This document shows, in pieces, positions 33,325 to 60,792 of a DNA stretch of 64,000 nt. Where the stretch lies: positions 1 to 64,000 of the forward strand of contig SVKA01000001.1 in NCBI GenBank assembly GCA_015068725.1, written 5' to 3'. The position numbers and the translations under genes are program-made. The DNA comes from Oscillospiraceae bacterium (GTDB taxonomy: Bacteria > Bacillota > Clostridia > UBA1381 > UMGS1253). Under the pieces are notes generated by a model. The model saw only the letters and a list, made by a program, of their open reading frames with translations, was not told the origin of the DNA and ran no database searches. The first letter of the stretch is position 1, and each line of letters starts with the position of its first letter.

Positions 33325-34206
33325 TTAATCTGCAACAGTCAAAATACCACGCATTTCAAATATTTTTCTTGCTTTTTCGATTTCTGCTTGCGAGGGCACA
33401 TCAATTTTTGGCATCACTTTATCCATACAGAGTGCCTCGTATTTTGTGTCGGTGAAATTGTGAAACGGCAGAATTTTTACTCTTGTGACATTTTTAAGAG
33501 TTAAAATAAAATCTGCGATTTTTTCCATCTGGTTATCGTTGTAGCCCGGCACATACGGGATTCGTATTTCGGTTTTCTTGCCATAATTGTCAATGCGTTT
33601 TAAATTTTCCAAAATCAATTTATTTGACGCGCCTGTGCATTTTTTGTGCACATCCTCGTCAAAGGCTTTGATATCGTATAAAAATATATCCGTATAGTCA
33701 ATGACTTTTTCAATACTCTCCCACGATACAAAACCGCATGTATCAACGGCTGTGTGAATGCCCCTTTCTTTTGCAAGCATAAGAAGCTCGCGACACGCGT
33801 CAGGCTGTATAAGACATTCGCCGCCCGAAAGGGTAATGCCCCCACCCGAAGCTTCGTAAAAGTCGATGTCCTCTAATGCTATTTCTAAAAGCTTGTCGGC
33901 GCTATATTCTTTTCCGTATATTTTAAATGCTTTCTGTGGGCATACTGTTTCGCACTTTCCGCATTTAATACAAAGCTTGTCATCAAAGCTATGAGTGCCA
34001 TTTGTAAACGTATTTGCATCGCACAGATGAGTGCACATGCCACAGTTAACGCATTTGTGCGCAAAGTATGCAAGCTGTGTATCCATTATAAGCCCTTCGG
34101 GGTTATGACACCACACACATCGCAGTGGGCATCCCTTAAAGAAAATAGTCGTTCTTATTCCGTCGCCGTCATGTACGGCAAAGCGTTTTATATCCATAAT
34201 TTGCAT
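33325..34206 (-). CDS. Glycyl radical enzyme activating protein (GRE1 partner)
   Basis: 293 residues. Radical SAM motif CPLRCVWC (CxxxCxxC) is at residues 26-33, preceded by HDGDGIRTTIFFKG. An inserted ferredoxin-like domain has two cluster motifs, CVNCGMCTHLC and [26 protein letters not shown] is the SAM-binding GGE-type region. The two extra 4Fe-4S clusters place it with activases of dehydratase or lyase GREs and not with PflA. Lies 15 bp after the GRE1 gene, with AAAGGAG in the gap. It should abstract hydrogen from Gly699 of GRE1. It might also serve GRE2, which has no own activase. Confidence 0.93.
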   Translation of the reverse strand: MQIMDIKRFAVHDGDGIRTTIFFKGCPLRCVWCHNPEGLIMDTQLAYFAHKCVNCGMCTHLCDANTFTNGTHSFDDKLCIKCGKCETVCPQKAFKIYGKEYSADKLLEIALEDIDFYEASGGGITLSGGECLIQPDACRELLMLAKERGIHTAVDTCGFVSWESIEKVIDYTDIFLYDIKAFDEDVHKKCTGASNKLILENLKRIDNYGKKTEIRIPYVPGYNDNQMEKIADFILTLKNVTRVKILPFHNFTDTKYEALCMDKVMPKIDVPSQAEIEKARKIFEMRGILTVAD

Positions 34207-34221
34207 AATTAATAATCTCCT

Positions 34222-36393
34222 TTATGCCATGTGGTCGGTTTGTTTTATAAACTCTTCCTGCTCCTCACGGCTAAGGTTTACAAAGTATACGTTCCAGCCG
34301 CACAATCTGACCTGCAGATTTTTGTATGCTTGCGGATTTTGTTGTGCTTTTCTCAGCGTTTTTGAATTTAAAACGTTGATTTGAAGCGCAATTAATCCCT
34401 TGTTCATGCATACTTTAATAATTCCAATCAGTGCATTAAGGCCGTCATCACCTTTAACAGCACTTTCGTGAAGCAATAAATCCAATACTGTGCCGTTGGG
34501 AATATTTGTGTAATCGACTTTGCATACTGAATTTATAAGTGCTGTTACTCCGTTTGAATCGGCGCCGAGCGATGCACACATATTCTTTGAAAGAGGCTCT
34601 TTTGCGAAGCGTCCGTCGGCGGTTGCGCCCGTACCTTCTCCAAATGCCATGCGCCAGTCGATTGAAAAAGTACCAAATCTATAGTGGCCGCCTCTGCCGT
34701 TAGGCTTACCATTTATGCACTCTGCAAGATAATCACAAAGCTCTGCTGCCATATTATCTGCCTCATCGCAATTGTTTCCATACTTATAGTCAAGGTTTTT
34801 GCACTTTAGCTGAAGGGCGCTATCCGTTTGCCAGTTGTTTGCAAGTGTCTGCGAGAGCTGCTCAAGTGTAACCACTTTTTCATCATAAACAAGCGTTTTT
34901 ACCGCCATAATTGAATCAACTGCAGTTGCAAGGCCAAAGGCATTGATGGAGGAGTTGTTATATTTTGCTCCACTGCTGTAAACGTCAACGCCTTTTTCAA
35001 AGCTTGCGGGAGTTGCTGCTGAAAGAAATGGTGCCGACTGAATTTTGTCGTAGTTTTTTTCATAGCTTGTTATTATATCCATAGAGCCGTCGGCGAAAAA
35101 GCGTAGTTTTTCTTTGACTGCATCCATAAAGGCATCGAATGTATCAAGCGGCTTTTTGCCTTTTTCAATAAGCTGCTTTCCCGACAAAACATCAAAACCG
35201 TCAGAGAGTGTAAGCTCAACTGCCTTTGCAATGTTGATTCGTCCGTTGCATGTGCACGGAAGTTCGCCCTTCGCCATAGGTTCATAGCAGCCTACAATTT
35301 CGTAATTATGTGCATCTTTCTTTTCTGCGCCCGATTTGATAAGGGCGTTTTCTACAACCTCATCATTCATAAAGAGAAAGCTGTTGCGACCGTTTCGAAT
35401 AGACTCTGCGACTGTTTTGAGCACTTTTTGGTCTATGTTCTTGTGGTATTTTATATGAATTTTTGGGTCGTGCGTATCAAGGGCGATATACTCTTCAAGT
35501 ATAATATGCGTAAGGGGATTTGTTAAATCGTTGCCGTTCTCATCTGCGCCGCAAAGATAGAACGGAATATTTGCACCAAATTTGTGTGCGCGCATTTTCC
35601 ACATAAAATATTTTAAATATTTTCTTGCTTCATCTTCTGTCATCTCACCGGTTTTTATATCGTTTTCATAGTATGGCCACAAAAGTGAATCAAGACCGCC
35701 GAGTGAGCGTACCCATGCGCTGTCTAAGTAGCATTGAAGCTCATAATATATGCAGATAAGCGAAAGTGCTTCAAAAAATGTTTTTGGAGCAGACTTTGAG
35801 AGTGTATACAGTGATTTTGCAGTTTTTTCAAGCTGCGGACTTTGTTCTTTTTTTGAATTTGCTTCGTCTGCAAGCCGGCGTGCAAACACAGCTGCGGCAG
35901 AGTATACAGTTTTTACACAAAGGTAAAAGTCTTTTTGGTTTTCTTTTAAAGAAGGATCGAGAAGTTTTTTGCCAGCGAGCTCAGCAATTCCCGAAAAACC
36001 GTTGTCTAATAAAAATTTCCAGTCAGGGCACGTGTGACCAAAATCGGAGTTTCCGTCAAAGGCGCATGCTGCTATAAAATCTGCGTATTTATCTAGAACG
36101 TGCTTTAGTTCGCATTTTTCTACTTCTGCCTGATTTGACATGCGTTTTTTCTCCGAGATATGACCATGCCTGATATTATCGGCAAAAAGAGTGTAGGGAT
36201 TTACCTCTATTTGTGCATTTTTCAAAATGCATTCTATAACCTGCGCCTTTGCAAGCTGTCTTGATATGGGGTTTGACTCTATTCTAACACATTCTTGTAA
36301 AAGTTCATCAGGGCAAAGGCCTGATTTTTCGTTCCAGTTTGGTGATGTGTATTCGTTTTCTAAGATTTCTTTTGCGTTTTCAAAATTATTCAT
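34222..36393 (-). CDS. Glycyl radical enzyme 1, uncharacterised (GCYEP type)
   Basis: 723 residues of the PFL-like superfamily. The thiyl cysteine is Cys369 in EIVGCYEPMAKGE, with Glu371 two residues on as in dehydratase/lyase GREs. This excludes pyruvate formate-lyase, which has two adjacent cysteines. The radical glycine is Gly699 in VRLCGWNVYF, where Cys and Trp flank it in place of the usual RVxGY. The ATG at 36393 follows GAGGTGAG; the ORF-track start at 36459 runs through the promoter region. Transcribed with its activase and divergently from an AraC regulator. The reaction is unknown; C-O, C-N or C-C cleavage are all possible. Confidence 0.88.
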   Translation of the reverse strand: MNNFENAKEILENEYTSPNWNEKSGLCPDELLQECVRIESNPISRQLAKAQVIECILKNAQIEVNPYTLFADNIRHGHISEKKRMSNQAEVEKCELKHVLDKYADFIAACAFDGNSDFGHTCPDWKFLLDNGFSGIAELAGKKLLDPSLKENQKDFYLCVKTVYSAAAVFARRLADEANSKKEQSPQLEKTAKSLYTLSKSAPKTFFEALSLICIYYELQCYLDSAWVRSLGGLDSLLWPYYENDIKTGEMTEDEARKYLKYFMWKMRAHKFGANIPFYLCGADENGNDLTNPLTHIILEEYIALDTHDPKIHIKYHKNIDQKVLKTVAESIRNGRNSFLFMNDEVVENALIKSGAEKKDAHNYEIVGCYEPMAKGELPCTCNGRINIAKAVELTLSDGFDVLSGKQLIEKGKKPLDTFDAFMDAVKEKLRFFADGSMDIITSYEKNYDKIQSAPFLSAATPASFEKGVDVYSSGAKYNNSSINAFGLATAVDSIMAVKTLVYDEKVVTLEQLSQTLANNWQTDSALQLKCKNLDYKYGNNCDEADNMAAELCDYLAECINGKPNGRGGHYRFGTFSIDWRMAFGEGTGATADGRFAKEPLSKNMCASLGADSNGVTALINSVCKVDYTNIPNGTVLDLLLHESAVKGDDGLNALIGIIKVCMNKGLIALQINVLNSKTLRKAQQNPQAYKNLQVRLCGWNVYFVNLSREEQEEFIKQTDHMA

Positions 36394-36447
36394 ATATAAC
36401 TCACCTCGTCTACAAGTATTGCATACAGACAGATAAAAGTAAATGCG

Positions 36448-36480
36448 CTTTTCAAACATTTTTGTACTTTTCGAACATTT
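36448..36480. promoter_or_regulatory. Candidate AraC operator: direct repeats in the GRE1/AraC1 gap
   Basis: CTTTTCAAACATTT (36448-36461) and CTTTTCGAACATTT (36467-36480) are direct repeats with one difference and a 19-bp period, about two helical turns. AraC proteins typically bind such paired sites. They lie upstream of GRE1 near where its -35 region should be. Confidence 0.5.
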
Positions 36481-48410: not shown

Positions 48411-49157
48411 TTACAGATGTTGTGTCCATTTACTCGGAGCAATACCGGTAAGGTTTTTAAACACTTTGCTAAAATAATATATATCGGAAAAACCGCATGT
48501 CCGGGCGATTTGCTCAATAGTAAAAAGTCCGGATACAAGCAGAGTTTTTGCGTGTTCTATACGGCGGTGAGTGATATATCTGTTTGGAGTGGTCAAAAAG
48601 TTTTCCCGAAATAATTCTCCAAAGCGTCTGGAAGAGAGCTTGCTTTGCGATATAGCAAAGGTTAAACAATTTTTCTCCTTGTAATGCAGGTCAATATACT
48701 CTTTTGCTGCAATCATTCGTTTGTCCTTTGGAAAATACTTTTTCTGGCGTATTTGTTCCAGCTTTGCGCAGAACAAGTACAATAGCGACATTATTGCCAA
48801 ATCGTCGCCGGTTTCCTGCATAGTTTTTGCTTTTTCAAGGATTGATATAAATTCGTCACAAACAGTCAGTGGAATACAAAAACTATCGGTATCGATTTTG
48901 TCATATGTAGTAAAATGAATGGAAAAGGCTTTGGCGGGCTCATACACTTCTACACTGTAATCATCTTTTTGATTTAAAAAATAGATGCAGTTTCTTGATA
49001 TTACAAATTTTTTATCTTTAAATGTGTGGAGTGCAGAGCCGGCAAGCTGGATTCCTACAATGTGATCTTTTCTGTTTTGAGCGGTCCAGCGTTTCATGCT
49101 TGTGTTATAAATTACTACGCCATGAACGTCTTTTGCGTGCAATTCGCTAAAACCCAT
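48411..49157 (-). CDS. AraC family transcriptional regulator 2 (divergent from GRE2)
   Basis: 248 residues: cupin-type N-terminal half (DHIVGIQLAGSALHTFKDKKFVISRNCIYFLNQKDDY) and C-terminal AraC domain (SQSKLSSRRFGELFRENFLTTPNRYITHRRI, then FTIEQIARTCGFSDIYYFSKVFKNLTGIAPSKW). Start supported by GGAAGTG. Faces away from GRE2 across a 158-bp gap, so it most likely controls that gene. Confidence 0.9.
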   Translation of the reverse strand: MGFSELHAKDVHGVVIYNTSMKRWTAQNRKDHIVGIQLAGSALHTFKDKKFVISRNCIYFLNQKDDYSVEVYEPAKAFSIHFTTYDKIDTDSFCIPLTVCDEFISILEKAKTMQETGDDLAIMSLLYLFCAKLEQIRQKKYFPKDKRMIAAKEYIDLHYKEKNCLTFAISQSKLSSRRFGELFRENFLTTPNRYITHRRIEHAKTLLVSGLFTIEQIARTCGFSDIYYFSKVFKNLTGIAPSKWTQHL

Positions 49158-49192: not shown

Positions 49193-49221
49193 AGTATATT
49201 ATCCGTTTATATCAATGTCAA
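49193..49221 (-). promoter_or_regulatory. SigA promoter of AraC2
   Basis: On the minus strand TTGACA (perfect), a 17-bp spacer and TATACT. Confidence 0.75.
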
Positions 49222-49260
49222 TATTTATTTCTGTATTTTACAAAATTTCTTTTGTTTTCA

Positions 49261-49315: not shown

Positions 49316-51562
49316 ATGAATGAGTTAAATCTGCGTAAAGAACTTGGTTCGTTTTATTTAAGCGGCGATGCACAGAGGGCAAAGTCATTTGCAGACAAAT
49401 GCTTTGAGATAATGGAGAAACGCTATAAAGAGTCAATGAGTGTAACAGAGCAAAAACTGTTGCAGTATGACGTTATTACAGAAGAGTTTGATCCTGTGAT
49501 ATTTCGTAATGCACCTTATTTTTATGAAACCGGAGTTTTAACATCACTTTCCGATGGCGCAAGAGGGGCAAAGGGACATTCTTTTGTCCATGCTAACGGA
49601 TGGGTTTATAAACGAAACGAGCATCTTTTTGCCGAGCAGGACGAAGAGTTGTACGAGCGTATGTGTGCACAAAAAGACGAAAAACTTTATCTTATTTGCG
49701 GACCATATAATGATGTGAGTCAGCATTTTAATTTTAATTGCCGTCCCATTTTGGAAGTGGGACTTAAGGGGATTTATGAAAAAGCCGAAGCTGAGCTTGC
49801 ACGCGCAAAAAATCATGAGGAAGAGGAATTTTTAAAAGCAGTATGTCATGGCATGCTTTCTTTGCGTCGCATGGCAGAAAAGTTTTCTGAAAAAGCAGGT
49901 AAAATGATTGAAAGTGAGCAGGACGAAGAATGCAGAAACAACCTTATACTCATTGAAAAAACCGCAAAGCGCGTCCCGTGGCAAGCACCACAGACATTAT
50001 ATGAGGCCTTGGCTACGTTGGCATTTTTACGCACGGCAATGGGTTCGCTTGAGGGAGTGGGACCGAACACTTTTGGTCGGCTTGACAAGGATTTGATTCG
50101 GTTTTACCGCGCTGATATCGGCAGTGGACTTGTGACGTCTGAAAAAGCGTATGAGCTTATTGTGCAGTTTCTTCTTATCTGGGACTGTCATTATGACCAT
50201 GATATGCTGATGCAGGGTTATGCCGATCATGAGCTTGAAAATACATATACTCTTGGGGGTTGCACCGATGACGGATCTGCGCTTTATAATGAAATTACCC
50301 AGATGTTTTTGCGTGCAACAAGAGAAAAAAAGATCATTTTTCCAAAGATAAAATGTCGCTATTCAAAAGAATCACCAAAGGAGTATCTTGACGAAATAAA
50401 CAAATCGATTATTAAGGGTACCACTACAGCTCTTATTCAAAATGATGATGCGACTATTCCGGCACTTTTGCGTGCAGGAAGAAGCATAAATGAAGCACGT
50501 GATTACTATATCAGTGGATGCTGGGATATAGTGACAAATCAGGAAAAGTGTGACCGTGGAAACTACTTGAATCTGCTCAAACCTTTTGAATTTTCTATAC
50601 ATAATCTGACAGATAAAATGGAAAAAACAGGTGTATGGGTTGAGTCTTTAGACGGAAGTGAAAGCTTTGAGCAAATATATCAAAAGACAATTCGAAACTG
50701 TGAGAGACTTATCGATGCAAAGCTTGATGTGACCAGGAAGGGTGGTCAGATTTTTCATAAGGTTGACAGATTTCCGATTTTTTCATCGACACTCGAAAAT
50801 TGTCTTGAAAATCATAAAGACTATACAATGGGCGGAGCAAAATACGCAGATGATTATCAGCTTATATTTGGCCTTCCCAATATTGTCGATTCTCTTCTTG
50901 CCATAAAAACGCTGGTTTATGAAAGTAAAAAATACACGCTTGCCAAGGTTTTGGACGCAGTACGCTTAAACTGGGAAGGATATGAGCTGATGCAAGCCGA
51001 GGCAAAGGCTGCTCCGGGCTGGGGAGATGGAAGCGAAGAGTCATGCGCTCTTGCAAATCGTTTTAATAACGATCTTTATTCAATCTTTCAGAAAAAGACA
51101 GGCACATATGGTGGCAAGGTGCATATGGGACACTTGACTTACACCGAAATTCGCTGGTGGGGAGAAAAAACGCTGGCAACTCCTGATGGCAGAAAAAATG
51201 GAGATTATTTTGCGCAAGGACTGACACCATCACGCCTTAAACATATTCCTTGCGTTACCGATGTGGTAAACAGCCTTGCAAGGCTCGACCCATCAACAAT
51301 GGTGGCAAATTCGGTTGTAAATATTATTTTGCCGAATAATACTCCGCTCGATTGCTGCGAAGCTTTTCTTCGTGCAAGTGCTGAAACAGCTCTCCAATCA
51401 CTTCAATTAAATTGTACTTCAAGAGAGCAATTGCTTGATGCTCAAAAGCATCCGGAAAAATATCCAGATTTAATTGTCAGAGTTACGGGCTTTTCTGCAA
51501 AATTTACAAGTCTTTCACGCGAATGGCAAGACGAGATAATTTCGAGGAACTTTTATGAATAA
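49316..51562 (+). CDS. Glycyl radical enzyme 2, uncharacterised (GCWD type)
   Basis: 748 residues, PFL-like superfamily. The thiyl cysteine is Cys402 in YYISGCWDIV. Asp404 stands where the catalytic Glu (GCVE) is found in known dehydratase and lyase GREs. The radical glycine is Gly725 in VRVTGFSAKF, followed by the usual SLSREWQDEII. All core features are present, so it should be active. No activating enzyme adjoins it, so it must be activated in trans, perhaps by one of the two activases in the window. Single gene with its own terminator, divergent from AraC2. Reaction unknown. Confidence 0.87.
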   Translation: MNELNLRKELGSFYLSGDAQRAKSFADKCFEIMEKRYKESMSVTEQKLLQYDVITEEFDPVIFRNAPYFYETGVLTSLSDGARGAKGHSFVHANGWVYKRNEHLFAEQDEELYERMCAQKDEKLYLICGPYNDVSQHFNFNCRPILEVGLKGIYEKAEAELARAKNHEEEEFLKAVCHGMLSLRRMAEKFSEKAGKMIESEQDEECRNNLILIEKTAKRVPWQAPQTLYEALATLAFLRTAMGSLEGVGPNTFGRLDKDLIRFYRADIGSGLVTSEKAYELIVQFLLIWDCHYDHDMLMQGYADHELENTYTLGGCTDDGSALYNEITQMFLRATREKKIIFPKIKCRYSKESPKEYLDEINKSIIKGTTTALIQNDDATIPALLRAGRSINEARDYYISGCWDIVTNQEKCDRGNYLNLLKPFEFSIHNLTDKMEKTGVWVESLDGSESFEQIYQKTIRNCERLIDAKLDVTRKGGQIFHKVDRFPIFSSTLENCLENHKDYTMGGAKYADDYQLIFGLPNIVDSLLAIKTLVYESKKYTLAKVLDAVRLNWEGYELMQAEAKAAPGWGDGSEESCALANRFNNDLYSIFQKKTGTYGGKVHMGHLTYTEIRWWGEKTLATPDGRKNGDYFAQGLTPSRLKHIPCVTDVVNSLARLDPSTMVANSVVNIILPNNTPLDCCEAFLRASAETALQSLQLNCTSREQLLDAQKHPEKYPDLIVRVTGFSAKFTSLSREWQDEIISRNFYE

Positions 51563-51585
51563 GCTTCAACGGCAGAAAAATAAAT

Positions 51586-51621
51586 AAATGCTCACTTATA
51601 TTTTATAGGCGAGCATTTTTT
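51586..51621 (+). terminator. Terminator of GRE2
   Basis: AAATGCTC and GAGCATTT pair around an AT-rich loop, then six T residues. Confidence 0.65.
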
Positions 51622-54569: not shown

Positions 54570-55418
54570 ATGAGTGTATTTTATTTGGTAGCGATTATTT
54601 TGGGTGTAGCCTTTCAAAATGTTGCCAAAAAACCATATACACAAAAGACTCAGGGCAGAGGTGTGTATATTTTTTCGTGTATGACCAGCTTTGTTGCGCT
54701 TTTGTTTTTTGTGTTTACAGCGGGCAAACTTTCGTTTGATGCGGGACTGTTTATATACGCATTTTTGTTTGCATTATCGTATATGTCTTCGGCAGTGTTT
54801 GGTGTGTTGGCGATAGCGTGCGGTTCTTTGTCGCTGACGGCATTGATTGTTTCATATTCGCTTATGCTCCCAACTCTTTACGGAATAATTTTTCTTAAAG
54901 ATCCTATTGGCGTTGGCCTAATTCCGGGCATAGCGCTGCTTGTTATTTCGCTTTTTCTTACTAATAAGAAAGGAGAAAACACGCAAATTACACTCAAGTG
55001 GCTTGTGTGTGTTACCATAGCGGCTGTCGGAAACGGTATGTGCTCTGTTACACAAAAGATGCAGCAGGTTGTATACGATGGTGCGTTTAAAAATGAATTT
55101 ATGATAATTGCGCTTGCAATGGTTGTAGTGATGCTTTTGTTTTTTGTTTTTGCAAAAGAAAGAAAAGATATAAAAATGTTTATTAACGCGGGCTGGAGCG
55201 CGTCGATTAGTTGCGGTATAGTAAACGGTCTTGTAAATCTTTTGGTTATGCTGCTTTCCGGCCTTATGGCAGCGTCTGTTATGTTTCCGTTGATTTCGGT
55301 AGGAGGCATAGTGGTTACATATCTTGTGTCGAGATTTTATTATAAAGAAAGCATTACAAAATCGCAGAGTGTAGGCTTTGTTTTAGGTTTGGCAGCAATT
55401 GTATTGCTTAATATTTAA
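54570..55418 (+). CDS. EamA/DMT superfamily transporter 2
   Basis: 282 residues, about ten membrane helices. Paralogue of transporter 1. Paired repeat ends are KDPIGVGLIPGIALLVISLFL and KESITKSQSVGFVLGLAAIVLL. TTAGGAGGAG before the ATG. It is 31 bp upstream of the GH28-SGNH gene and presumably in one transcript, so it may import the oligosaccharide or sugar that this enzyme handles, although DMT proteins more often carry small solutes. Confidence 0.82.
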   Translation: MSVFYLVAIILGVAFQNVAKKPYTQKTQGRGVYIFSCMTSFVALLFFVFTAGKLSFDAGLFIYAFLFALSYMSSAVFGVLAIACGSLSLTALIVSYSLMLPTLYGIIFLKDPIGVGLIPGIALLVISLFLTNKKGENTQITLKWLVCVTIAAVGNGMCSVTQKMQQVVYDGAFKNEFMIIALAMVVVMLLFFVFAKERKDIKMFINAGWSASISCGIVNGLVNLLVMLLSGLMAASVMFPLISVGGIVVTYLVSRFYYKESITKSQSVGFVLGLAAIVLLNI

Positions 55419-55449
55419 GACTGAAACAGATAAAAAGGAGATTTCATAT

Positions 55450-57654
55450 ATGTCATTTAATGTTTATCCCATACAAAAAACGGACTTGGTATGTGAAGAT
55501 TATGAAGTAAAAGTGAACGGAAAAGTAGCAGCGCTCAACAGTGCAAGGGTTTCGGCTATGCCGATGAATCGTCGCTGGCCGGGACATCAGCGCGAGATTG
55601 AGCAAAGTGAGCTTATTAATTTTCTTTCACTTGCAACAGATGAGCCGCTTTCGTTTGAAATAACGCCTAAAACACCGTTTGAAGAGGTGAAAATCCGTCC
55701 AAAATCGCTTAATATAACGCCCGAGATTACAGACGACGGAAAAATCCGTTTTACCTTGCCAAGAGCGGCATATTTTACAGTCGAGCCATATGGCAGAAAT
55801 CGCGCGCTCCATATTTTTGCAGATCCGATAGCCGAGTATGATATTGATATAAACGCTCCTGATGTTTTATATTACGGAGCGGGCGAGCACGATGTCGGAT
55901 TAATTGAGCTTAAAGCCAATCAGACACTGTTTATAGATGAGGGCGCAGTCGTATATGCGCGTATTCACGCAATCGATGCGGACAACATAAAAATACTTGG
56001 CAGAGGTATTCTTGACAACAGCAGAAACAAAGAAAAGATACTTTTTGAGGTAAATGCCGAGGGAAATGACTCAGCAGTATCCAACGCAAAACGTGAGCAT
56101 ACTGTTGTGCTTGAATACTGTGATAATGTAGTTATCGACGGTATAACAATAAGAGATTCGCTCGTTTATAATATCCGCCCGATTGGATGTGAAAACCTTA
56201 GCATAAAGCACGTAAAAATTATCGGATGCTGGAGATTTAACTCCGATGGTATTGACATGCACAACTGTGTAAATGTGCATATTGCAAAGTGCTTTATCCG
56301 TACATTTGATGATTCAATCTGTGTTAAAGGTTTTGATTTTTATAATGTTGAAAATCAGGAGGAAGCCATTAAAAATGCAATGTACCATAATGGCAAGGTG
56401 CACGATGTATTTAAAAACGTTTTGGTCGAGGACTGCGTAATCTGGAACGACTGGGGAAATTCGCTCGAAATCGGCGCTGAAACAAAAGCGGAAGAAATAC
56501 ACACCGTAACATTCCAAAACTGCGATATAATTCACCTTACGGGTGCGGCGCTTGACTGCTTTAACGTGGATTATGCCGATGTGCACGACATTGTTTATCG
56601 CGATATAAATATCGAAGCAGATGAGGTCATACCGGCGCCCGTTATACAACAAAGCGACGGCGAGGTATATGTAAATCCTGACCCGAATTATATGCCGTAT
56701 ACGGTTCGCGCAAAGGTGGAATTTCACTATGAATATTCAGGCGGCATGACAAGACGTGGTAAAAATAGAAACATTACATTTAAAAATATTCATGTATACA
56801 GCGACAAGCTGCCCCGGGCGCAATTCTTTGGTTATGACGAAGATCATAAAACGGAAAATATATTGGTTTCAAATCTTTATCTTAATGGAAAGCCAATTAC
56901 AAAGCTCGAAGGTGAAAACTGGAATATCGGTGATTTTACAGAAAATATCCGACTTGAATATGACCCTTATGCACAAATGGATAAAAATGATGTCGATGCA
57001 AAGGACCAGTTAAAAGAATCGGCAGTAGTGCGTTTTGAAAACCCTGACTTTAAGGGAAAGCGTGTTATGTTTGTAGGGAACTCAATTACGCTTCACGGAA
57101 TTCGTCCGCAGATTGGCTGGTATGGTGAATGGGGCATGGCGGCGTCGGCGCAGGAAAAAGATTATGTGCACCTTCTTATGTCAGATATAAGAAAAATCGA
57201 TTCCGAGGCGGCATTTTGTACTTGTCAGGTGTCGGGCTGGGAGCAGAATTATAAAGAAAAAAACGACGATTTTACTCTTTATGAAAGTGCATCCAACTTT
57301 GGCGCAGATATTATCGTTTTGCGTTTTATCGAGAATGTAAAAAAAGATGACTATGACTCAGAATTGTTCTTAAAGGGATTTGATGCACTTGTAAAATTCC
57401 TTGACAAAGAGAAAAAGGCAAAGCTTATTATTACGACGGCATTCTGGCATCATCCGGGCGACGATGACCTTCGTATGTATGCAAAAGAGCATAACATACC
57501 ATGTGTCGAGCTTGGGGATTTGGGTGATGATGACAAGATGAAGGCGACGGGACTTTTTGAGCATAAGGGCGTTGCACATCATCCGGGCGATGAGGGTATG
57601 CGCGCGATAGCAGACCGCGTAATGAAGGCGCTTATTGATAGCAAATATTTATAA
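55450..57654 (+). CDS. GH28 glycosidase fused to an SGNH/GDSL esterase
   Basis: 734 residues, no signal peptide, so cytoplasmic. Residues about 80-500 are a right-handed beta-helix of the GH28 (polygalacturonase/rhamnogalacturonase) type with catalytic aspartates in FNSDGIDMHN and TFDDSICVKG. Residues about 535-734 are an SGNH hydrolase: block I VGNSITLHG with the nucleophilic serine, GWYGEWGMAASAQEKDYVHLL, and the block V Asp-His pair region HHPGDEGMRAIA. Together they would trim and deacetylate imported pectin-like fragments. The ATG at 55450 follows AAAAAGGAG; the upstream ORF-track start is inside the transporter gene. Confidence 0.85.
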   Translation: MSFNVYPIQKTDLVCEDYEVKVNGKVAALNSARVSAMPMNRRWPGHQREIEQSELINFLSLATDEPLSFEITPKTPFEEVKIRPKSLNITPEITDDGKIRFTLPRAAYFTVEPYGRNRALHIFADPIAEYDIDINAPDVLYYGAGEHDVGLIELKANQTLFIDEGAVVYARIHAIDADNIKILGRGILDNSRNKEKILFEVNAEGNDSAVSNAKREHTVVLEYCDNVVIDGITIRDSLVYNIRPIGCENLSIKHVKIIGCWRFNSDGIDMHNCVNVHIAKCFIRTFDDSICVKGFDFYNVENQEEAIKNAMYHNGKVHDVFKNVLVEDCVIWNDWGNSLEIGAETKAEEIHTVTFQNCDIIHLTGAALDCFNVDYADVHDIVYRDINIEADEVIPAPVIQQSDGEVYVNPDPNYMPYTVRAKVEFHYEYSGGMTRRGKNRNITFKNIHVYSDKLPRAQFFGYDEDHKTENILVSNLYLNGKPITKLEGENWNIGDFTENIRLEYDPYAQMDKNDVDAKDQLKESAVVRFENPDFKGKRVMFVGNSITLHGIRPQIGWYGEWGMAASAQEKDYVHLLMSDIRKIDSEAAFCTCQVSGWEQNYKEKNDDFTLYESASNFGADIIVLRFIENVKKDDYDSELFLKGFDALVKFLDKEKKAKLIITTAFWHHPGDDDLRMYAKEHNIPCVELGDLGDDDKMKATGLFEHKGVAHHPGDEGMRAIADRVMKALIDSKYL

Positions 57655-57705: not shown

Positions 57706-58605
57706 TTACGCCTTTTTGACGGGCACATCAGTTTTTTGAGCAATTTTTTCTATATAAATCTCTACATCTTCTTTTGTCGGAACGGGAAAATCTTCGCCGG
57801 CATTTTTGCCGAGCATTTCCTTTTTGTGTTTTCCCAAGGGATTATATGGTTCTACATCTACCTGCACAATATTTGCAAGAGTATTTGCAAGCGCCGCAAT
57901 CCCTTCAAAATGTTCGTCAGTATCATTGACGGTGGGTATAATTGGACACCTGAGAATAATTTTTGCGCTTGATTTGTCAAGAGATAAAAGGTTTTCTTTG
58001 ATAAGAGCATTATCTACGCCCGTATATTTTTTATGCAAATCGGGTTTGGTGATTTTCCAGTCGTATAAAAACAAATCCGTAACAGAGGCAATGTGTGCCA
58101 AATCTTCATATTTTGCATAGCCGCATGTTTCGACGCATGTGTGAATTCCGTTTTCTTTTGCTGCTTTTAATATTTCGTATGAAAATTCGGGCTGTAAAAG
58201 AGGTTCGCCACCTGAAAGAGTAATGCCGCCACCAGTTTTTTTGTATAGCTCCAAATCAGAAAGCGACTTTTCCATAATTTGTGCGACGCAGGTTTCATAT
58301 CCTGCCATTTCGAGTGCAGTAGTCGGGCAGACATCGCAGCATTTTTCACACAGGTTGCATTTTTCACGCAAAAAGATATGTTTATTATCCGATATAACGT
58401 GTGCGTTTTGCTCACATTTCCCCACGCATCCGCCGCAGCCAATGCACAACGACGGATTATACATAAGCTCGGGATGTGCGTTTTGCGATTCGGGGTTATG
58501 GCACCACACGCATCTTAAAGGACAGCCTTTTAAAAATATGGTCGTGCGAATACCGGGGCCGTCCTCGGTGCAAAAGCGTTGTATGTTGAAAACGATATTA
58601 CGCAT
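57706..58605 (-). CDS. Glycyl radical enzyme activating protein (GRE3 partner)
   Basis: 299 residues. Radical SAM motif CPLRCVWC after [14 protein letters not shown], two ferredoxin-type motifs ([11 protein letters not shown] and [11 protein letters not shown]), and [15 protein letters not shown]. Same architecture as activase 1. The ATG is six bases after the GRE3 stop, so translation is likely coupled. It should generate the glycyl radical on Gly704 of GRE3. Confidence 0.94.
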
Positions 58606-58611
58606 ACGCTA

Positions 58612-60792
58612 TCAATACTCCGTTCTGTCTATAATTTCCTGTTGAAGCTCGGGGAAAAGCCTTGTAAAGTAATCACTATATCCGCCGATGCGTACAATCA
58701 GGTCGCGGTGTGCTTCGGGATTTATCTTTGCATCCTCGAGCGTTTTTCTGCTCACGCAGTTGACCTGCATTTCAAGGCCGCTGCGCTCGATAAAATGGCG
58801 AAGCAGTGCGACGAAATTTTTAGCTTTTTCACCTTTGAGATTTTCAGAACCAAATTTGATATTTACTACCATACCGCCAAGAAGCTCTTGTTGTGGCCAC
58901 GATGTAAGCGAGCGTATCATTGCAGTCGGTCCGTTTGTATCACGTCCCTGTACGGGCGAGCAGCCATCCGAATACGATGTATTTGCAAGTCTTGCGTCAA
59001 AGGTTGCACCGCACTGCCTTCCAAGTGATGCGTGTGTTACGTATGAAAAAGTACCGGGCATCAATAGCTTTTTTGCGGGCATTGTATCTTCTTTTAAAAG
59101 GTCTATGCAGCCGTGAGCAATTTTTTTTGCAAGAGCGTCAATTTCGACGTTTTCGTTTCCATAATGTGCTATCTTATTTATAATGTATTGTCTTAGAGGT
59201 TCGTTGCCTTCGTAATTGTTTTCGACAATTTTACAAAACTCTTCAAAAGTAAGCTTTTTCTCTTTGAAAACAAGCGTGTCAATCGCATACAAAGAATCAA
59301 CCACAGTTGCAAGTCCAAGAAAGTTTGGCTGTATAAAGGTATATTTTGCACCGCCCTCGTAAATACTTTTTCCGCTTTCGATACAACCTTCAATCAAAGC
59401 GTTTATGCGCATAGGGTCATAGCCAATGCGCCCCGCCTCTACAATGCGAAGCATATATTTTTCAAGGCTTTTTGTTATACGGCCTCGCAAAACATCAAAA
59501 AATGCGTAGATAATTTCTTCGAGTGAATCAAAGCTCTTTGCCTTTACAGCATCAAGCAGCGCCTTTGGCAAATCGCAGCATATAGCGGTTGAGTGCGCTT
59601 TACTTTTTCCTATAATGCTGATTTCTGCACACGTTGTGTGTATATAATTTACGGCATCTTCAAATGAGCAGCCATAATTTTTTACAAGCGAGTCTGTGAT
59701 TGTTCTGTCATTGTAAAAAGCGGGATGTGTAACACCCTTTGATAAAATTTCGCTCGCATACAAAAGGAGCTCGTCGCTTGTGTTTTCGTTTACACAAAGA
59801 GCACCATTCGGGTCGGGTAGCTTTAAATGTTCAAGTGCAGTTAAAAACATATATGTAAGCTCGTTTTCAACGCAATTTCCGTCTTTGTCAAGTCCACCTA
59901 CCATAAAGCCGCATGCCGAGCGTGAAAATACGCGGTCTGAAACACCAAGACAAAAGTTATCAATCAAATCCTGTGCAAATTCTTGTGTCAAAACGCCATC
60001 TTCTACATCTTTTTTATAATATTCATAAAGATAGCGGTCAGGACGTCCCAACGGATATAAACCCATAACTGCGCTTAAGAAGAAATGTACGCTTTGGATT
60101 GCCTCATAAAAGCTTTCTGCAGGTGCATCTGGCACTTTTTTTAGAATGTCTGCAAGGCGTAAAAGTTCTTCTTTTCTTGCTTTATTGGCTGTGTTTGCTT
60201 CTTCGAGTGCCTTTTGTGCATATCTTTGAGCGTGTTCTGACACGGCGTCAAGCTCGATTAAAAGACACTGATAAAATTCATATTTTTTTAATTCGGAAAA
60301 ATCGGGAGCATCGTTATTATCTGCAAGGTTGAGCGAGTCCATTTTTTCTTTTATCTGCGATTTTATTCCGTTTAAACCGAGTTTAAGCAGTTTTTCAAAG
60401 TCCAGAGCAATATGTGTGTTTCTTGGAGAACGGAAAAGTGTTGTGCGCGACGACATTTTAAAGCTCTCCCACAAAGCGTCGTACTCTTTTTGCTCATCGT
60501 CAGAATATACAGGTAAGTATACATGACCGAGCAAAAGCTCGTCATCATAAATAGCCGGCTCGGACTGTTTTATTTCTTCTGCTTCGGCCAAAGCACTGCG
60601 AATAAGTGTTGTGTCAGCATTTTCGTTTTCCTTCCATCCGCGAAGAAAACCGAGCGTGAACCATCGGTCGCCCGTATTGAATTTTTTATAGCGCTCATGA
60701 TTGTATGAATCCACGGCGCCCGGTACTGTCAAGGTAGTATATATCTTTTTTAAATTGGTTATTCTCTCACTGATTTTGATGGGTGTATACAT
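58612..60792 (-). CDS. Glycyl radical enzyme 3, uncharacterised (TCAE type)
   Basis: 726 residues, PFL-like superfamily. The thiyl cysteine is Cys388 in YIHTTCAEISIIGKS. The usual Gly before Cys is Thr, while Glu390 is kept. The radical glycine is Gly704 in VRIGGYSDYF. The N-terminal part lacks the choline- or glycerol-type signatures I know. AAAGGAG lies ten bases before the ATG. Operon with its activase, divergent from AraC5. No aldehyde dehydrogenase, alcohol dehydrogenase or microcompartment shell gene is nearby, so the product must be handled elsewhere. Reaction unknown. Confidence 0.88.
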   Translation of the reverse strand: MYTPIKISERITNLKKIYTTLTVPGAVDSYNHERYKKFNTGDRWFTLGFLRGWKENENADTTLIRSALAEAEEIKQSEPAIYDDELLLGHVYLPVYSDDEQKEYDALWESFKMSSRTTLFRSPRNTHIALDFEKLLKLGLNGIKSQIKEKMDSLNLADNNDAPDFSELKKYEFYQCLLIELDAVSEHAQRYAQKALEEANTANKARKEELLRLADILKKVPDAPAESFYEAIQSVHFFLSAVMGLYPLGRPDRYLYEYYKKDVEDGVLTQEFAQDLIDNFCLGVSDRVFSRSACGFMVGGLDKDGNCVENELTYMFLTALEHLKLPDPNGALCVNENTSDELLLYASEILSKGVTHPAFYNDRTITDSLVKNYGCSFEDAVNYIHTTCAEISIIGKSKAHSTAICCDLPKALLDAVKAKSFDSLEEIIYAFFDVLRGRITKSLEKYMLRIVEAGRIGYDPMRINALIEGCIESGKSIYEGGAKYTFIQPNFLGLATVVDSLYAIDTLVFKEKKLTFEEFCKIVENNYEGNEPLRQYIINKIAHYGNENVEIDALAKKIAHGCIDLLKEDTMPAKKLLMPGTFSYVTHASLGRQCGATFDARLANTSYSDGCSPVQGRDTNGPTAMIRSLTSWPQQELLGGMVVNIKFGSENLKGEKAKNFVALLRHFIERSGLEMQVNCVSRKTLEDAKINPEAHRDLIVRIGGYSDYFTRLFPELQQEIIDRTEY

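Follow-up and report, generated by a model that had tools for sequence, protein, structure and literature searches.

A glycyl radical enzyme with GCWD in its Cys loop, best read as a member of an uncharacterised gut subfamily that lacks the Cys-X-Glu glutamate

The GRE2 locus

The window, the whole stretch of DNA analysed here, comprises 64,000 nucleotides of an Oscillospiraceae bacterium (contig SVKA01000001.1, positions 1–64,000). It contains a gene for a glycyl radical enzyme (GRE) of 748 amino acids, designated GRE2, at bp 49316..51562 on the forward strand. The gene was assigned to a GCW[G/D/A] subfamily by its Pfam domains (PF02901 and PF01228), an AlphaFold2 model and 25 orthologues. 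In the translation, the Cys loop with the thiyl Cys is formed by Gly401-Cys402-Trp403-Asp404 (codons GGA TGC TGG GAT, bp 50516..50527, +) in the context YYISGCWDIV, Asp404 being the residue at Cys+2. The glycyl radical loop VRVTGFSAKF (residues 721–730, bp 51476..51505, +) contains Gly725 in the context LIVRVTGFSAKF. An earlier, sequence-only reading of this DNA had reported GCWD at Cys402 and an intact glycyl loop, and both were confirmed by the translation.

A gene for an AraC-family regulator (Pfam HTH_18) is present at bp 48411..49157 on the reverse strand, divergent from GRE2. Its orthologues lie beside GRE2 in relatives, and a gene of this type adjoins GRE2 at nearly every locus with enough flanking sequence. 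Alignment of the upstream regions of 8 loci showed an operator-like element, TGTCAATATTTATTTCTGTATTTTACAAA, in the gap between the two genes (bp 49216..49244, core 49227–49244), with the consensus TGTMAATA-NNN-ATTTCYGTATTTTACAAA and small variations. The exact core occurs only once in this genome, between the AraC gene and GRE2, and in 22 genomes searched the matches with 0–1 mismatch were found mostly at GRE2 promoters. Of the sites away from GRE2, the two that were inspected for co-regulated genes showed no pathway link. Downstream of GRE2, an inverted repeat with 18-nt arms (83% complementary) ending in a T run is a probable terminator (bp 51583..51621, +). Since it directly follows GRE2, no activase is expected to be co-transcribed with the gene.

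GRE2 belongs to the GRE superfamily but fits none of the characterised families

The Pfam scores of GRE2 (304.6 bits for PFL-like and 54.5 bits for Gly_radical) were both well over the cut-off. The RVXG[FWY] glycyl motif of the superfamily is present as RVTGF, with Gly725, and Cys402 is invariant and aligns with the catalytic Cys of HypD and CutC. Structure prediction, one of the checks proposed in the sequence-only reading, gave a GRE fold: the AlphaFold2 model, built from 32 sequences of the window and the loci, had a mean pLDDT of 92.8 and the 10-stranded barrel, and matched solved GREs of several classes with TM scores of 0.80–0.87 at 17–24% identity. All features tested except the presence of an activase place GRE2 in the GRE superfamily.

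No characterised GRE family fits, and none of the NCBIfam equivalog cut-offs was reached. The best sequence match in the PDB was HypD (NF043068; E 2.5e-63), which has the fold, the catalytic Cys and the Gly in common with GRE2 but is only about 23% identical, GRE2 scoring 262 bits where the cut-off is 1100. The best fold match was CutC (5fau; TIGR04394; TM 0.84), which shares the Cys and Gly loops; here the identity was 23%, the score 241 bits (cut-off 1050), and the CutC base Glu491 has no counterpart in GRE2. The B12-independent glycerol and 1,2-propanediol dehydratases (1r8w, 5i2g) share the fold (TM 0.83–0.86) at 22% identity, but their Cys-X-Glu (CXE) glutamate is missing in GRE2. PflB resembles GRE2 in its glycyl loop and in having no Glu at Cys+2; it differs in its Cys-Cys pair, where GRE2 has a single Cys (Gly401-Cys402-Trp403), and it matched only the C-terminal part of GRE2 (56 bits). 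The nearest sister groups found were GCHE/GCQE GREs of Clostridia (L050, L051 and L015; 27–31% identity), which share LEGIG or a similar motif and the E at position 306 with GRE2, but which, unlike GRE2, retain the CXE glutamate.

The CXE glutamate in other GREs

GRE eliminases are reported to have the CXE motif in conserved form; in HypD the variant E436Q is inactive, as are H160Q, D278N and D339N (PMC7077986). The E470Q variant of the isethionate lyase IslA is likewise inactive (PMC8473560), and Glu491 is the catalytic base of CutC in simulations (PMC12451663). In indoleacetate decarboxylase (IAD) Glu502 is essential; its inactive E502Q variant was designed to mimic phenylacetate decarboxylase (PMC9248008), from which it follows that the latter enzyme (PhdB) has Gln in place of Glu. 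By this description PhdB can be likened to GRE2, and since a characterised GRE without the Glu exists, its absence is unusual, not unique.

The GREs that we collected outside the GRE2 family, which were gathered by similarity and are not an unbiased census, carry Glu at Cys+2 in the motifs GCVE, GCYE, GCNE, GCHE, GCQE, TCAE and GCWE. The exceptions in this set were PFL (CCVS) and a small group of GCNW GREs (L086:6325-8559 (+), L061 and L080), which forms a second group without the CXE glutamate. The GCNW GRE of L086 adjoins an activase of its own and lies near a GRE2-type activase. A literature search for GCW-type or sugar-acting GREs gave no match.

Residue 404 varies, and Glu is absent throughout the family

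The alignment to HypD matched Cys402 with the catalytic Cys of that enzyme and Asp404 with its CXE glutamate (Glu436), as the sequence-only reading had placed them. That reading also took the shorter side chain of Asp404, at the position of the usual acid/base, as a sign of a different geometry or reaction, and suggested that its conservation in close homologues be checked. We examined 25 orthologues, GRE2 included, with 49–75% identity and the Cys+2 column filled, which were obtained by searching relatives and genome contigs. They came mostly from MAGs of ruminant-gut Clostridia; where a source was named, it was the gut of ruminants or other animals. Cys402 and Trp403 were invariant in all 25, so the GCW motif is not a chance occurrence. 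The residue following Trp403 was Gly in 18, Asp in 5 and Ala in 2, and never Glu. Gly is thus the commonest state and Asp a minority state. An additional paralogue had Ala at this position.

The codons at position 404 are one base change from a Glu codon or nearly so; they include GGA, GCA, GAT and GAC, each a single change away. In a tree built without this column, at least 6 changes among G, D and A were needed. As Glu was never found at Cys+2 in the orthologues, the absence of the CXE glutamate is a trait of the whole family, which therefore does not have the feature that defines the GRE eliminases.

The same data make a working Asp404, a shortened CXE glutamate with altered geometry, improbable. 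Asp does occur in the near relatives L019, L021 and L022, in L011, and in two distant relatives with 33–36% identity (L017 and L018). However, most orthologues have Gly or Ala within the same invariant surroundings, even close ones with 72–74% identity (L020, L024 and L032). Among columns tested for co-variation with Asp404, none of structural interest was found, and none compensates by separating Asp from Gly members. As Asp404 is not conserved, it is unlikely to be the family-defining acid/base, and the tolerance for Asp, Gly and Ala could mean that the position is simply not involved.

One genome carries a pair of GRE2 paralogues in head-to-head orientation on one contig, separated by two AraC genes (L011 and L016); one paralogue has GCWD and the other GCWA. 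The distant GCWD relative L018 (G101:C27:5313-6995) has an internal TAA stop, indicating that either the copy is broken or the assembly is in error here.

The exclusion of Glu throughout the family also bears on the type of reaction. GRE2 might not be an eliminase at all: the Cys+2 Glu is not always used in C-C bond cleavage or formation, decarboxylation or isomerisation, PFL carries CCVS at the same site, and phenylacetate decarboxylase has Gln there, as deduced above from the IAD variant. We consider this rather doubtful, as the nearest relatives of GRE2 by both sequence and fold (HypD, CutC and the diol dehydratases) are eliminases, the double Cys of PFL is not found in GRE2, and no conserved partner gene indicates a specific reaction.

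Candidate residues for proton transfer

The HypD network of His160, Asp278, Asp339 and Glu436 is not present as a whole in GRE2. According to the sequence alignment, in which residues in loops may be off by one or two, His160 is probably retained as His137 and Asp339 corresponds roughly to Glu306, but Asp278 is replaced by Gly249 and Glu436 by Asp, Gly or Ala in the family. His137 was invariant in 32 of 32 aligned GREs.

Residues 302–311 (YADHELENTY in GRE2, Y302-Y311, bp 50219..50248, +) form a family-specific loop that is invariant in the GRE2 family, save for A or S at position 303. In the sequence alignment it occupies the position where eliminases place an aromatic residue over the substrate. 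From its invariant columns it is a candidate acid/base and substrate-binding loop, and we infer that it takes part in proton transfer.

Activases

Two activases are present in the window, at bp 33325..34206 (−; TIGR02494, 328.8 bits) in the GRE1 operon and at bp 57706..58605 (−; TIGR02494, 321.2 bits) in the GRE3 operon. Each directly adjoins another GRE (34222-36459 (−) and 58612-60792 (−)), confirming the earlier observation that GRE2 has no activase beside it and that the nearest two adjoin other GREs. These two other GREs of the window lie within 27 kb and have GCYE and an unusual TCAE. The genome contains six PFL-like GREs, a high count for an assembly of 1.58 Mb, and five activases: the two in the window, one on contig C29, the PFL activase on C20 and one on C32 that is cut by the contig end. 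Five of the six GREs have an activase as neighbour; GRE2 alone has none.

In relatives, GRE2 has an activase that overlaps its stop by 8 nt (L019, L020, L021 and L032) or that directly follows it (L033 and L087). These GRE2-adjacent activases form one clade (support 98/95), which also holds activases paired with GCNE GREs. In the tree, both window activases fell outside this clade, and no clade member was found among the activases of this 88.6%-complete genome. A tblastn search with the GRE2-type activase of a close relative gave significant matches only to the two window activases, which are only 40–42% identical to it. The usual partner activase of GRE2 is therefore missing from this assembly. 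In total, 16 of 23 genomes with GRE2 contained the clade activase; in the other seven, including this one, identities did not exceed about 50%.

GRE2 itself belongs to a clade of seven members (support 98/93), and the genomes of all six others, its closest relatives, contain the clade activase. In four of these it overlaps GRE2 by the 8 nt mentioned above; in the other two it lies on a different contig from GRE2, one of these GRE2 genes being cut by the contig end.

Given a completeness of 88.6%, loss of the activase, cross-activation and an assembly gap are all possible. The earlier reading took the operon arrangement to imply cross-activation, which does not follow in view of the dedicated activase of the closest relatives. 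Activation of GRE2 by the GRE1, GRE3 or PFL activase would be in line with the count of six GREs and five activases, with GRE2 alone having none adjacent, and with six other GRE2 genomes that also lack the clade activase. We nevertheless hold it to be somewhat less probable than not: the clade activase is found in all six nearest relatives, the window activases are poorly related to it, and, as it is encoded on another contig in two close relatives, it may sit in the part of the genome that is missing. Loss of the activase followed by decay of GRE2 into an inactive enzyme would also account for the lack of a clade activase in the assembly and beside the gene. This is very improbable, as the reading frame is full-length, every family-invariant residue is retained, the operator core is exact and the terminator is intact.

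The activase in L021 (4970-5713, +) lacks a cysteine-rich (ferredoxin-like) insert of ~32 residues that is present in its L020 orthologue. In two relatives, the GRE2-type activase adjoins genes that by eye resemble a DeoR-like regulator and an AraD-type aldolase/epimerase (L021:5844-7417 and L084:3529-5107). The AraC-GRE2-activase unit of L021 is immediately preceded by the GRE1-activase operon (1-1463); in the window about 12 kb separate GRE2 from that operon.

Distribution and gene neighbourhood

GRE2 was absent from the other genomes searched of its genus and family. Within the order it occurred in 3 of the 95 genomes, a number that includes this genome and one relative with 33% identity, and protein searches of the phylum and the order gave few or no further members. 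This patchy occurrence fits horizontal transfer of the AraC-GRE2 unit.

When the neighbourhoods were searched for a pathway gene conserved beside GRE2, the AraC regulator alone recurred throughout, with the activase in some loci. Among the listed neighbours, which covered ORFs of 100 aa or more, no small Fe-S accessory subunit like those of the X-succinate synthases was noticed. The other neighbours were variable and included GH2, GH4, GH20, GH28, GH29, DUF6259, PfkB and xylose-isomerase-like genes, among others; glycosidases recur near GRE2 as a class, though no single glycosidase gene does. The window has a GH28-type glycosidase at bp 55399..57654 (+; Pfam PF00295), and a homologue with 65% identity to its product precedes a clade activase in L083. 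These neighbours suggest a carbohydrate-type substrate for GRE2, a hint weakened by their lack of conservation and by the abundance of glycosidases in gut Clostridia.

Discussion

The best reading of these data is that GRE2 falls in an uncharacterised, itself new, subfamily of GREs from animal guts that lacks the CXE glutamate. We propose, with a probability of about 0.5, that it is a working GRE in which protons are moved by His137 and the DHELEN loop and which acts on a carbohydrate-like substrate. The Cys402 thiyl radical would take a hydrogen from this polar substrate, and proton transfer would be performed by invariant pocket residues elsewhere than at Cys+2, namely His137 and the D304-H305-E306-L-E308-N309 loop. 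His137 and the 302–311 loop may also bind the substrate, with position 404 kept small to give room. The gene would form a self-contained unit with its divergent AraC regulator, accompanied in close relatives by a radical-SAM activase from the dedicated clade that this assembly lacks.

The family thus probably differs from known dehydratases either in its handling of protons or in its reaction. Going further, it is conceivable, but in our view unlikely, that GCW[G/D/A] marks a functional class which carries out a reaction novel among GREs on carbohydrates from gut glycans, with its proton machinery in the DHELEN loop.

Cys-X-Glu is a mechanistic hallmark by which GRE eliminases are recognised, and exchange of the Glu for Gln inactivates three characterised GREs. 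A natural family that has the radical machinery but not this Glu raises the question of where the acid/base may be located instead, or of which reactions proceed without one. The intact GRE-activase operons in L020, L021 and L032 make this question testable.
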